From contig NZ_CP045529.1 of the NCBI RefSeq assembly GCF_009429125.1, positions 3,782,001 through 3,846,000 on the forward strand: DNA of 64,000 bases, in the 5' to 3' direction. Below the pieces are notes generated by a model, which saw only the letters and a list, made by a program, of their open reading frames with translations, had not been told where the DNA came from and did not search any database. This document shows positions 4,694-64,000 of the stretch, in pieces (positions within the stretch are counted from its first letter, which is position 1; every line of letters starts with the position of its first letter). Origin of the DNA: Luteimicrobium xylanilyticum. GTDB taxonomy: Bacteria; Actinomycetota; Actinomycetes; Actinomycetales; Cellulomonadaceae. The position numbers were made by a program, and so were the translations under genes.

Positions 4694-6153
4694 GGCTCTT
4701 CGTCGATCCGGTGGGGATCAGGTCGTGAGGCCGCCGGCGGCGAGGAGCATGCGGAGGCGGTAGTTGTCGTAGTTGCGGTAGCCGCGGGCGAGGCGGCGGT
4801 GGAGCTCGATGAGCCCGTTGACGGCCTCGGTCGGCCCGTTGTTCTGGCGGCCGGTATCGAAGTAGGCGAGGAACGCGTCCCGCCAGCGCCTGAGGGTCCG
4901 CCCGAGCCGGGCGACCTCGGGGATCGGGCAGGTGTGGAACGAGTTCAGGACGTGCTCGGCCAGCTTGCGGCCGTCGGCGAGGTCGCGTGCGTGGTAGGCG
5001 GCGCGTAGGTCCTGGGCGCACTGCCAGGCGACGAACACTTCTTCGTGGGCGTCGTTGGCTTCGAGCGCCCGGGTCAGGCGCGCCCACTGCTTGTCGGTCA
5101 GGTGCTCCGCGCCGGCACGCAGGATGGTCTGGATCCCGAACAGGGGGTCGCCCTTGCGGCCGCGGTGCCCGGTGGTGTCTTGCTGGACGCGGCGTCTGAC
5201 CTCGTCGACCACGGCGGTGCCGAGCTTGACGACGTGGAACGCGTCCAGGACCGCGGTCGCGTCGGCGAGCTGGTCGTCGATCGCGGCCTTGTAGCCCCCG
5301 AACGGGTCGAGCGCCGCGACAGCGATCTTCGCCCGGAACGCTTCGCCGCGCTCATTGAGCCAGTCGGCGTAAGCCTTCTTCGACCGGCCAGGCACCAGGT
5401 CCAGCAGCCGGGCGCGCACGCGGCCCTTCTCGTCGCGGGTCAGGTCGACCATCCCGGTCAGCTCCTTGGGGCCGCGCACGTGCCGGTCGCCGTGGTGCCA
5501 GATGTGCTCGTCCACCCCCAGGGACCTGACGCCGGCGAACCGGGACTCGTCACCAGCGAGACGTTCGAGGACGGGCTTGATCGCACGCCACAGCGCCCAC
5601 CAGGACACCGCGAGGCGGCGTGCCAGTCCGGCGATCGTGGCGTGCTCACGGCGCAGCTGCCCGATCGCCCACGCCACCGCCCGGACCGTGATCGAGCCCC
5701 GCGCCGCGACCAGGGTCGGGACCTGCTCGGTGAACGTCCCGCGAGGACACCCAGCTTCCGGGCAGCGCCACATGCGTTGCCGCCACACGAGCCGGACCCG
5801 GACGTCACCGTGCGGCACGTCATGCAGGACGCGCCTGCGCCTGCCCCGGCTCGGCGCGACGACCCCGCAGTCCGGGCAGCCCATCCGGTGCCACGGCGTC
5901 GACACCGTGACCGTCATCGACGTTTCGGCCCGCTCGACCGACTCGACGCTGACCTCAGACAGGCCGAGCAGCACATCACAACGGGCACAAGGATCAGTAG
6001 TAGTGGGCGCGCCAGCGCACCCCGTAGCGTTGGACAACGTCGAGGTCCTCGAAGTCGATCAGTGGTTGGCGCTTCTGATCATCGGGGACCTCGACCCCTA
6101 CACCCAGCCCGTCACACCGCCGCCGTCACTCCCCACCAGATCGGCGAAGAGCC
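4694..6153. mobile_element. ISL3-family insertion sequence nested in the IS5-type element
   Basis: The 1,460-bp element has 23-bp imperfect terminal inverted repeats beginning GGCTCTTCG (4694-4716 and 6131-6153; two mismatches). It is flanked by a perfect 8-bp direct repeat, CGAATCAC, at 4686-4693 and 6154-6161. Eight-base target duplications are characteristic of the ISL3 family. The perfect duplication and complete transposase suggest a fairly recent insertion and possible activity. Confidence 0.95.
4718..6037 (-). CDS. ISL3 family transposase
   Basis: A complete DDE transposase of up to 439 residues, occupying nearly all of the ISL3 element. It has the family's N-terminal zinc-ribbon (GCPDCGVV ... 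CPEAGCPRGTF), a helix-turn-helix region, then catalytic motifs SLGVDEHIWHHG, DAFHVVKL and NNGPTEAVNGLI carrying the D, D and E residues. The longest frame starts at a TTG at 6037. A GTG codon about 20 residues later (VLLGLSEVSVESVE) is an equally plausible start. It is antisense to the host transposase gene. No stop codons or frameshifts are seen. Confidence 0.93.
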   Translation of the reverse strand: MSNATGCAGAPTTTDPCARCDVLLGLSEVSVESVERAETSMTVTVSTPWHRMGCPDCGVVAPSRGRRRRVLHDVPHGDVRVRLVWRQRMWRCPEAGCPRGTFTEQVPTLVAARGSITVRAVAWAIGQLRREHATIAGLARRLAVSWWALWRAIKPVLERLAGDESRFAGVRSLGVDEHIWHHGDRHVRGPKELTGMVDLTRDEKGRVRARLLDLVPGRSKKAYADWLNERGEAFRAKIAVAALDPFGGYKAAIDDQLADATAVLDAFHVVKLGTAVVDEVRRRVQQDTTGHRGRKGDPLFGIQTILRAGAEHLTDKQWARLTRALEANDAHEEVFVAWQCAQDLRAAYHARDLADGRKLAEHVLNSFHTCPIPEVARLGRTLRRWRDAFLAYFDTGRQNNGPTEAVNGLIELHRRLARGYRNYDNYRLRMLLAAGGLTT

Positions 6154-59868: not shown

Positions 59869-60762
59869 TCAGACGGCGAGGTGGAGGCGGCGGGGCCCGA
59901 GGCCGATGCGGATCTCCTGCCCCCACGACGCGATCAGCCGGTCCGACTCCATCCCGTCGCCGAACACGACGAGCTCGTCCGAGGCGACGACCACCACGAG
60001 CTCGTCGTCGCCTCCGAGCGTGCCCTCCGTGAGCTCGACGCCCGTCGACGGCGACGGCCACGCCTCCCGGACGAACCACGCCAGGCGCTCGTCGGTCGGG
60101 CCCGGCAGCGCCCGGCCGCCGCGGTCGTGCGCGATCGACGCGCACCAGCCGGTCGCGCCGGTGCCCGTCGAGACGATCAGGCCCGACGACGACTGCCGCT
60201 CGCTGCGTCCGCCGTCCCGCCCGCCCAGCTCGAGCCGGTACCGCGCCGACTGGTGCGACGGGTGCCCCACGAACACCTCGTTGAGGGCCGTGAGCTCCTG
60301 CCCGTCGTCGAGGGCGGCACGGACGGTGGTCAGGTGCGCGACGTGCGCCCGCTCGGGCGCGGCGAGCAGCCGGGCCGCCGACCGCGCGTCGTGCCGGACG
60401 AGCACCCCCGGGTTCGCACCGGGCTCGGGGTCGACCCCGATCACGGGCTGACCGTCGAGGTACTTCGCGACGTTCGCGACGAGGCCGTCCTGTCCGACGA
60501 CCACGACGACGTCCTCGGGCGCCCACAGGAACCGTCCCAGGTCGGCGCGCTCGACCTCGGCGAACGCCCAGTCCCCCGGCACCGCGGAGGCGACCGACGC
60601 CCGCGCGGAGGCGACGGCGTCGTGCCGGCGCTGGACGTCGTCGAGCGTGCGGCCACGGGTCCGGAGGAAGAACTCCGCCTGCCCGCGGGTGCCGTGCCGG
60701 TCGAGGAGCTCGTCGAGCTCCGTCCGCCGGTGCACGACGACGGCCCGTCGCCGCAGGCTCAC
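59869..60762 (-). CDS. NAD kinase-like protein
   Basis: A 297-residue protein of the ATP-NAD kinase/diacylglycerol kinase fold. The GGDGT motif is altered to VVGQDGLVANVAKYL (about residues 89-103). The substrate motif is ALNEVFVGHPSHQSARY, and STGTGATGWCASI matches the conserved SxGTGxT region. The N-terminal 80 residues are helical and specific. The altered first glycine may change phosphate-donor use. Its GTG overlaps the SPFH gene stop by four bases. It is not the housekeeping NAD kinase by sequence. Confidence 0.8.
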   Translation of the reverse strand: MSLRRRAVVVHRRTELDELLDRHGTRGQAEFFLRTRGRTLDDVQRRHDAVASARASVASAVPGDWAFAEVERADLGRFLWAPEDVVVVVGQDGLVANVAKYLDGQPVIGVDPEPGANPGVLVRHDARSAARLLAAPERAHVAHLTTVRAALDDGQELTALNEVFVGHPSHQSARYRLELGGRDGGRSERQSSSGLIVSTGTGATGWCASIAHDRGGRALPGPTDERLAWFVREAWPSPSTGVELTEGTLGGDDELVVVVASDELVVFGDGMESDRLIASWGQEIRIGLGPRRLHLAV

Positions 60763-61775
60763 CGCGCACCGCCGGCGGCCTGGGCGAACGCGGCGAGGGC
60801 GCCGGTCAGCAGGTCGGGCGTGATGGTGAGGTTGTCGACCTTGGGCAGGGTGCCGGCGGCGTCGCGCAGGGCGAGCGCCAGGAGCGTGCCGCGGTCGACG
60901 TCCGCGTAGACGGCCATCGCGGCCGCGTCCTTGGCGGCCTCGGCCTCGCCGACGACGCGCGTCTCCTGCGCGCGGGCGGTCGCCTCGACGTCGCGGCGCT
61001 CGGCGGCTGCCCGAGCCTCGATCAGCGCGGCGGCCGCGGCCTCCTCGGCCTCGCGCCGCGCGTTGGTGCCCTCCTGGGCCACGAGGTCCTCGCGGCGTCG
61101 GGCGAGCTCGATGCGGCTCGCCAGCTCGTTCTCCGAGATCGTGCGCTCGCGCTCGACGGCGAGCGCCCGCCGCTCGTAGGTCGCGCGGTCGGCCTCGGCC
61201 TGGACGCGTTCACGGACCGGCGTCTGGAGGGCCTTCTCGACGTCGGCCTCGGGGCGGACCGCGAGCACGTGCACGCCGAGCACCTCGATGCCGGTCGAGG
61301 TGAGGCGCGGGTCGGCCGCGAGAGCGTCCGTGAGGACCTGTCGCACCTGCCCGACGCCGACCTCGAGCGCCTCCGTGAGCGGGAGGGTCGCGACGTGGTC
61401 GACGGCGCGGCTCTGGGCGAGCTGGCCGATGATCGTCGCGACCTGCTGGCGCCCGGCGGCTGCCCCGGTCCCCTCGGGCCGGGGCGGGAAGATCCCGAAG
61501 TCGAGGCGCTGCGCGACGATGACGGGGTCCGCGAAGCGGAACGTGACGTTCGTCTGGACCGTGACGTCCTGGTGGTCGCGCGTGGTCGCGTGGAAGAGGA
61601 CCGGCAGCTCCTGGTCGGTCGCGGGGACCTCGCTCAGCACCGACGTCGTGGGCTTGAACCAGAACGCCTGCCCGACGCCTTCGTGCCGCACGTGGCCCTT
61701 GGTCAGGTGCACGACGTAGTCCGTCGGGGTGCCGAGGAAGCGGCGTCGGGCGGGGTAGTGCTTGATGGTGGCCAT
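60759..61775 (-). CDS. SPFH domain/Band 7 family protein
   Basis: A 338-residue Band 7 protein without an obvious N-terminal membrane helix. The SPFH domain spans about residues 25-200 (HATTRDHQDVTVQTNVTFRF, IGIEVLGVHVLAVRPE-like strands). A long Ala/Glu/Arg coiled coil follows (ERERTISENELASRIELARR, GEAEAAKDAAAMAVYAD), and a terminal hydrophobic helix. Such proteins form oligomeric scaffolds. It is the first gene of a pair with the NAD kinase-like protein, divergent from an NrtR-type regulator. The ATG at 61775 has AAGGAGGACC upstream. Confidence 0.9.
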   Translation of the reverse strand: MATIKHYPARRRFLGTPTDYVVHLTKGHVRHEGVGQAFWFKPTTSVLSEVPATDQELPVLFHATTRDHQDVTVQTNVTFRFADPVIVAQRLDFGIFPPRPEGTGAAAGRQQVATIIGQLAQSRAVDHVATLPLTEALEVGVGQVRQVLTDALAADPRLTSTGIEVLGVHVLAVRPEADVEKALQTPVRERVQAEADRATYERRALAVERERTISENELASRIELARRREDLVAQEGTNARREAEEAAAAALIEARAAAERRDVEATARAQETRVVGEAEAAKDAAAMAVYADVDRGTLLALALRDAAGTLPKVDNLTITPDLLTGALAAFAQAAGGAR

Positions 61776-61800
61776 CGTGGTCCTCCTTGTTCGGTCTTTG

Positions 61801-61855
61801 TTGTCGTCGTAGTGACGATAAACCGCCTCGGGGGTTCTCGTCAACTCGACGACAA
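61801..61855. promoter_or_regulatory. two 21-bp palindromes, probable NrtR-type operators
   Basis: TTGTCGTC-N5-GACGATAA (61801-61821) and TTCTCGTC-N5-GACGACAA (61835-61855) share the form TTNTCGTC-N5-GACGAYAA. Their starts are 34 bases apart. They lie 26 bases upstream of the SPFH gene ATG and 18 bases upstream of the NUDIX regulator ATG. This fits a regulator binding both sites and controlling both directions. Confidence 0.8.
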
Positions 61856-61873
61856 GAGGTTAGGCTGGAGGGC

Positions 61874-62620
61874 ATGAGCCGCACCGACGCCGCACCAGGC
61901 CTGCCGCCCACCGCCGCGCTCCTGCCCGTGACCGTCGACGTCGTCGGGCTCACCGTGCGCGCAGGCGTCCTGCAGGTGCTCCTCGTCCGGCGCCTGCTCG
62001 AGCCCTTCGCCGGCGCGCTCGCCCTGCCGGGCGGATTCGTCCTCCCCGACGAGACCCTCGAGGCGGCCGCCGCGCGCGAGCTCGCCGAGGAGACCGGTGT
62101 CGCGCCGCCCGGGCACCTCGAGCAGCTGCGCACCTACGGGCCGCTCGACCGCGACCCCCGCGGCCCCGTCGTGTCGGTCGCGCACCTGCTGCTCGCCCCC
62201 GCGTTCGGACTGCCCGCCGCCGGGGGCGACGCCGTCGAGGTCGCGTGGCACGACGTCGGGCCGCTGCTCTCCCGGGGCGGCGGCGGGCGGACGCTCGCCT
62301 TCGACCACGAGCGCATCCTCGCCGACGGCGTCGAACGCGCCCGGGCGAAGCTCGAGTACTCGGCGCTCGCGACCGCGTTCTGCGGGCCGGAGTTCACGGT
62401 CGCGGACCTCCGCGCCGTGTACGAGGCGGTCTGGGACGTCCAGCTCGACCCCCGCAACTTCCACCGCAAGGCCACCGGCACGCCGGGCTTCCTCGAGGAG
62501 ACCGGCCGGACGACGTCGGGCGGCACGGGGCGCCCGGCCGCGCTCTACCGGCTTGCCGCGGCCGCCCAGGATCCGGGCGCCGTCGTCCTCAACCCGCCGC
62601 TCATGCGTCCGGACGCCTGA
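61874..62620 (+). CDS. NrtR-type NUDIX/winged-helix regulator with intact NUDIX box
   Basis: A 248-residue protein: an N-terminal Nudix domain and a C-terminal winged helix (LEYSALATAFCGPEFTVADL, VQLDPRNFHRKATGTPGFLE). NrtR proteins bind ADP-ribose and repress NAD genes. The Nudix box is complete, G-x5-E-x7-REUxEExGU: GFVLPDE then RELAEETGV at about residues 57-78. So hydrolase activity may be kept, unlike classic NrtR proteins where the box is often degraded. ATG with GGAGGGC directly upstream. It probably regulates the divergent SPFH/NAD kinase-like pair. Confidence 0.9.
   Translation: MSRTDAAPGLPPTAALLPVTVDVVGLTVRAGVLQVLLVRRLLEPFAGALALPGGFVLPDETLEAAAARELAEETGVAPPGHLEQLRTYGPLDRDPRGPVVSVAHLLLAPAFGLPAAGGDAVEVAWHDVGPLLSRGGGGRTLAFDHERILADGVERARAKLEYSALATAFCGPEFTVADLRAVYEAVWDVQLDPRNFHRKATGTPGFLEETGRTTSGGTGRPAALYRLAAAAQDPGAVVLNPPLMRPDA

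Positions 62621-63477: not shown

Positions 63478-64000
<523 letters not shown>

Follow-up and report, generated by a model that had tools for sequence, protein, structure and literature searches.

A three-gene system tied to the metabolism of nicotinamide adenine dinucleotide (NAD) was found in the actinobacterium Luteimicrobium xylanilyticum, in a stretch of 64,000 nt (the window) belonging to a searched genome of 4.2 Mb; going by its conservation and the positions of its operators, it is a real system. The regulator gene nrtR lies on the plus strand and is divergent from a two-gene unit on the minus strand, which consists of spfh, encoding an SPFH/Band 7 protein, and a NAD-kinase-like gene (nadkL), with two palindromes between them. 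The best overall explanation, held with moderate confidence, is that NrtR would keep the scaffold and an enzyme or sensor derived from NADK2 repressed as long as the level of an NAD metabolite stays low. An earlier note on this stretch had pointed to a winged-helix regulator of the NrtR type with a complete Nudix box, two matching 21-bp palindromes and a four-base overlap of the SPFH gene with the NAD kinase-like gene, and all of these features are present. nrtR (61874-62620, +) encodes 248 aa with a Nudix domain and an NrtR winged helix. The spfh gene (60759-61775, -) starts with the ATG at 61775 and encodes 338 aa, and it overlaps by 4 bp (60759-60762) with nadkL (59869-60762, -), which uses a GTG start and encodes 297 aa with a GQDGLVAN loop, an LNE motif and the sequence TGTGATGW. 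Operator 1 (TTGTCGTCGTAGTGACGATAA) occupies 61801-61821 and operator 2 (TTCTCGTCAACTCGACGACAA), 34 bp from it, occupies 61835-61855. A mechanical start of nrtR at TTG 61787 was rejected, as it would place both operators within the coding region; the ATG at 61874, which is preceded by GGAGG, is preferred.

A search with the NADK-like protein yielded 80 loci, whose titles are actinobacterial save for one that names Sporosarcina, a record that may be mislabelled. SPFH was encoded upstream of the NADK-like gene in all 80 loci, and NrtR, nearly always divergent and close, in 77; the others are L034 (truncated by a contig end), L043 and L068, and at L032 the gap to NrtR amounts to 818 bp. Of 297 genomes sampled across the class, 51 encode SPFH, and precisely these 51 also encode the NADK-like protein. 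According to the match coordinates, the two genes lie side by side on one strand, no more than 250 bp apart in 46 of 50 genomes and about 300 bp at most, with a partial SPFH match, in the other four. A divergent NrtR was located less than 2 kb away in at least 25 of these 50 genomes, the remainder being mostly of the Streptomyces type. No fourth conserved gene was common to the loci beyond close relatives, so that the trio, judged by its neighbourhoods, is a unit within changing surroundings. In a sample of the phylum, the module was found in 10 of 247 genomes, a patchy distribution. This distribution and NAD-linked sensing would suit a phage-defence module, which is nevertheless considered very improbable: the candidate was rejected because PADLOC gave no match for SPFH or the NADK-like protein, the loci share no neighbours of any kind, defence or other, and the pair was not found in phages or viral contigs.

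The palindromes are strongly overrepresented at this position. Four strand matches with up to two mismatches were counted in the window compared to 0.09 expected from the shuffled window, and with a refined consensus the sites at 61801-61821 and 61835-61855 are the only ones in the 4.2-Mb genome even at up to three mismatches, so the NAD biosynthesis genes of L. xylanilyticum carry no such site. A consensus scan returned a single promoter-like site in the window, on the spfh strand (mean of 0.0 in shuffles), a match that by itself is no proof of function. This predicted spfh promoter (61815-61844, -) has its -35 hexamer TTGACG (61844-61839) in operator 2 and its -10 hexamer TATCGT (61820-61815) in operator 1, with a spacer of 18 bp. 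As both hexamers fall within operators, the arrangement has the geometry of a repressor and suggests that spfh is repressed by NrtR. A total of 97 loci, approximately ten of which represent the same genomes fetched twice, were scanned for operators, and twin sites (up to four mismatches, within 170 bp before spfh) were present in 90 of them, against a background of 15 in 911,886 positions of those loci. The spacing of the twin sites is 33-34 bp in 59 loci and 42-46 bp in 29 loci, two classes that lie about one helical turn apart. Computationally, palindromic operators are thus placed both at the promoter of nrtR itself and at its target, as is typical for the NrtR family. Co-conservation across Actinobacteria, which the earlier note had offered as a check, is therefore borne out for the gene pair, the trio and the twin sites, and both the pairing and the palindromes are kept well beyond close relatives.

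Genomes in which the regulator and the unit are separated allowed the operator to be connected with NrtR. In Streptomyces-type genomes (family f6), nrtR is encoded outside the unit, roughly 90-240 kb away where one contig holds both, and spfh retains its twin sites; one operator of the same kind was seen in four of five nrtR loci examined in this family. Named Streptomyces and Kitasatospora records also bear the SPFH-NADK-like pair, in Kitasatospora with twin sites and without an adjacent NUDIX gene. Family f9 loci without NrtR beside spfh have no sites. The pattern search identified a site with at most one mismatch in 25 of 198 genomes (none for the reversed control pattern), and in 17 of the 25 it precedes spfh. 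Seven of the 25 belong to a sister actinobacterial family (f81) in which no NADK-like gene was found, with the sites placed ahead of nadE, a nadB-nadC fusion and pnuC-nadR. By position, the operator word is therefore the NrtR operator of NAD biosynthesis in this sister group. This is the strongest link of the trio's operator, and by extension of its probable effector, to NAD metabolism, and it supports the connection proposed in the earlier note. The recognition helix LDPRNFHRK is common to NrtRs of the trio and of the f81 settings, while another f81 copy reads LDPSNFRRK. Taken together, the assignment of the operator to the regulator is very probable, and an NAD-type effector is probable. A rival view accepts the operator and the regulator but proposes an effector from outside NAD metabolism and an operon with an unrelated role in envelope stress or with sugars. 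In its favour, AraR, another member of the family, answers to arabinose (PMC4666351), and Rhizobium records name a 'sugar kinase', but the same operator at nadE, nadBC and pnuC-nadR in the related family and a fold of the NADK type, not of a sugar kinase, make this explanation quite unlikely. Several observations were made at the separate NrtR-type loci. The Streptomyces-type nrtR genes L109-L112 and L115 mostly have one operator upstream and in several loci lie near a gene that by eye encodes an HrdB-like major sigma factor. NrtR-type sites also occur in one genome of the Streptomyces type that lacks the NADK-like gene (L150:3952, L151:3825), and at L114:4822-7052 an NrtR gene is followed by an overlapping open reading frame that by eye is ADP-ribosylglycohydrolase-like.

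Outside the Actinobacteria, the module was encountered in individual records, which do not constitute a systematic genome sample. The divergent trio is also present in Proteobacteria, namely in Rhizobium, where the records carry the names NUDIX, SPFH and 'sugar kinase', and in Cupriavidus, Methylomonas, Acinetobacter and Proteus mirabilis. The spirochaete Treponema and also Roseomonas have the SPFH-NADK-like pair with no NrtR gene beside it. The actinobacterial operator was not found in the non-actinobacterial loci scanned, and the NrtR recognition helices differ there (KKSFRRR and others). Other paired palindromes were read from the sequence, with no statistics attached, before spfh in Acinetobacter, Cupriavidus and Treponema. 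On an Acinetobacter plasmid, the spfh gene is split into two pieces. A separate observation concerns resistance genes: at L161 (A. lwoffii, 4992-5936), L164 (P. mirabilis, 4998-5897), L165 and L166, an entire NADK-like gene or its 3' remnant adjoins tetR(H)-tet(H) or tet(J), and such a gene or remnant is also found beside tet genes on small Pasteurellaceae and Psychrobacter plasmids. A chromosome bearing the trio may have been the source from which this tet resistance region was mobilised. On a Leptospira plasmid (L167:2677-3917), a distant NAD kinase relative is followed by an overlapping gene for a STAS-domain protein.

The regulator combines the two domains that define the NrtR family (Pfam NUDIX, 6e-17; NrtR_WHD, 1e-14) and is the only NrtR_WHD protein of the genome. 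Among its PDB matches are Nudix proteins of the NrtR-like kind, AraR and NadQ, and it scored 102.9 bits with the NCBIfam equivalog NF050029 (ADP-ribose-responsive repressor), under the curated cut-off of 400. The Nudix box is complete (G-x5-E-x7-REL-x-EE-x-GV), and 85 of the 88 actinobacterial relatives compared, a set that includes some duplicates, likewise have an intact box. In NrtRs of NAD metabolism, the box is reported to be impaired (PMC4666351). This difference makes it possible that an active Nudix domain of the actinobacterial NrtR removes its own signal. The backbone of the NrtR tree is not resolved and does not distinguish a single joining of NrtR to the pair from several.

The NADK-like protein was found to have the fold of a NAD kinase and an altered signature. 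It remains under the gathering cut-offs of the Pfam NAD_kinase models PF01513/PF20143 (12.6 versus 25.5 and 11.5 versus 23.7 bits), but a profile of its own family finds human NADK2 by sequence (3.6e-16), and Foldseek assigned its AlphaFold 2 (AF2) model, with a predicted local distance difference test (pLDDT) score of 94.7, to human mitochondrial NAD kinase 2 as best match (7r4l, 5e-18). The name 'sugar kinase' used in the Rhizobium records was rejected on account of this fold. In all 42 actinobacterial relatives, the GGDGT motif is replaced by a G-[Q/P/S]-D-G-L-V-A-N sequence (35 Q, 6 P and 1 S) with invariant D, G, L, V, A and N; none of them has the second Gly or the Thr of GGDGT. The catalytic Asp, D92, and N161 of the NE motif are invariant in the same relatives, and position 162 is E or D. 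The GQDG of the window copy (residues 90-93) had been interpreted as the GGDG of a NAD kinase; the motif is indeed there, whereas the picture of a NAD kinase with one changed letter does not hold, since the family has an invariant DGLVAN following G[QP]. GQDG looks like a distinct, selected active site and not like a decayed kinase, and by these residues the protein is a member of a separate NADK2-related family with the hallmark G[QP]DGLVAN.

Two alternative roles of this protein were weighed. It could function as an NAD or NADH kinase that draws on an unusual phosphate donor and, as a second and inducible enzyme of this kind, would increase NADP under stress. The invariant D92 and N161, the E/D at 162 and the NADK2-like fold fit such an enzyme, and since the L. 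xylanilyticum genome encodes a NAD kinase of the canonical GGDGT type at another locus, an inducible second one is plausible. Against this, every actinobacterial relative has the second Gly replaced by Q, P or S and the Thr by L, and GQDGLVAN is retained in full-length copies from Proteobacteria and a spirochaete; the loop was seen in Rhizobium, Cupriavidus, Methylomonas, Acinetobacter, Proteus and Treponema. Plain NAD kinase activity is regarded as somewhat unlikely. It is a tentative possibility that the protein is catalytically inactive and acts as a NAD(P)(H) sensor gating the SPFH assembly, as the altered phosphate-binding loop and the obligate partnership with SPFH in 51 of 51 genomes would allow. 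The very strong conservation of D92, G93, K100, Y101, H170, Q171, D269, E272 and D274 across the family instead fits an active site, and the loop is retained in organisms as different as Rhizobium, Cupriavidus, Methylomonas and Treponema.

The SPFH protein was recognized by Pfam (Band_7, 6.3e-14) and by structure. Its AF2 model (pLDDT 87.8) consists of an SPFH domain and a long helix and matches HflK/C, stomatin, erlin, flotillin and vault. By hydropathy only, no transmembrane-grade stretch and no N-terminal anchor or hairpin was detected in 97 SPFH relatives (maximal 19-residue hydropathy 1.61, median 1.21).

The favoured mechanism, in which NrtR controls the scaffold and its partner, builds on the computed gene set, its co-conservation, the operators, the fold and signature of the NADK-like protein, its catalytic Asp and NE motif and the NAD-gene operators in relatives. 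NrtR would bind the two palindromes over the spfh promoter and just upstream of nrtR and thereby repress both spfh-nadkL and itself. A rise of an NAD-derived metabolite, most likely ADP-ribose and possibly NAD+, would release NrtR, and a soluble SPFH assembly and the NADK2-like protein would then be made together. The latter might be an altered kinase or a sensor of nucleotides that binds NAD(P) or a similar nucleotide, and the SPFH scaffold might organise it through direct contact. The purpose of the module could be the handling of NAD(P) imbalance or damage. Several observations weigh against this mechanism. In some genomes (L101-L103), spfh-nadkL is found with neither an adjacent NrtR nor sites, so control by NrtR is not obligatory. 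The agreement of the distance matrices of the three proteins (r 0.88-0.91), which speaks for the mechanism, is also expected from shared species history. The Nudix box of the Rhizobium and Cupriavidus NrtRs is impaired, and the arabinose response of AraR demonstrates that the family can bind non-NAD ligands (PMC4666351). A bolder version is considered unlikely: a NAD(P)-stress module spanning several phyla, in which a repressor released by an NAD metabolite governs a soluble SPFH shell, similar to vault or HflK, and inside it an NADK2-derived enzyme with new chemistry, for example on ADP-ribose or damaged NAD(P), G[QP]DGLVAN marking a new enzyme family.

Each component resembles known proteins. 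The NrtR of NAD synthesis (MsNrtR of M. smegmatis, PMC6800001; PDB 3gz5/3gz6) likewise joins a Nudix domain to the NrtR winged helix and uses a palindromic operator between divergent nrtR and target genes in an autoregulatory layout. In contrast to MsNrtR-type systems, the target here is spfh-nadkL, and there are two operators of the form TTNTCGTCA-N3-TGACGATAA instead of GTTTTCGA-N7-TCGAAAAC. NadQ (COG4111; PMC5343134) has a related winged helix, controls NAD genes and binds a palindrome of similar layout (ttATRCTCannntGAGYATaa), but its N-terminal domain is unrelated. Mitochondrial NAD kinase 2 (7r4l, 7n29) shares the fold, the position of the catalytic Asp, the NE motif and the TGTG(S/A)xxW region with the NADK-like protein, which is shorter, has about 18 percent identity to it and carries G[QP]DGL for GGDGT. 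HflK/C, stomatin, flotillin and the major vault protein also have an SPFH domain followed by a long helix, whereas the SPFH protein described here has no transmembrane segment or hairpin by hydropathy and a fixed NADK-like partner. The statement in the earlier note that no system with this gene set had been described agrees with the papers searched, none of which joins NrtR/Nudix with SPFH or SPFH with NAD kinase; a listing in Rodionov 2008, the founding NrtR paper, or in RegPrecise is possible. Regulators of this kind are known; neither the NADK-like family nor the target pair appears to have been described in those papers. With the trio, a bacterial SPFH protein would have a constant partner from metabolism and a defined regulatory switch, a rare case in this largely unexplained superfamily, and the NrtR family would reach beyond NAD synthesis, to a scaffold protein and an NADK2-like family missed by present Pfam and NCBIfam cut-offs. 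As the regulator, operators and genes form a compact and widespread set, the role of SPFH scaffolds with nucleotides becomes directly testable. At the end of the window (63478-63999, -), an open reading frame truncated by the window edge is by eye ThiC-like (thiamine synthesis).
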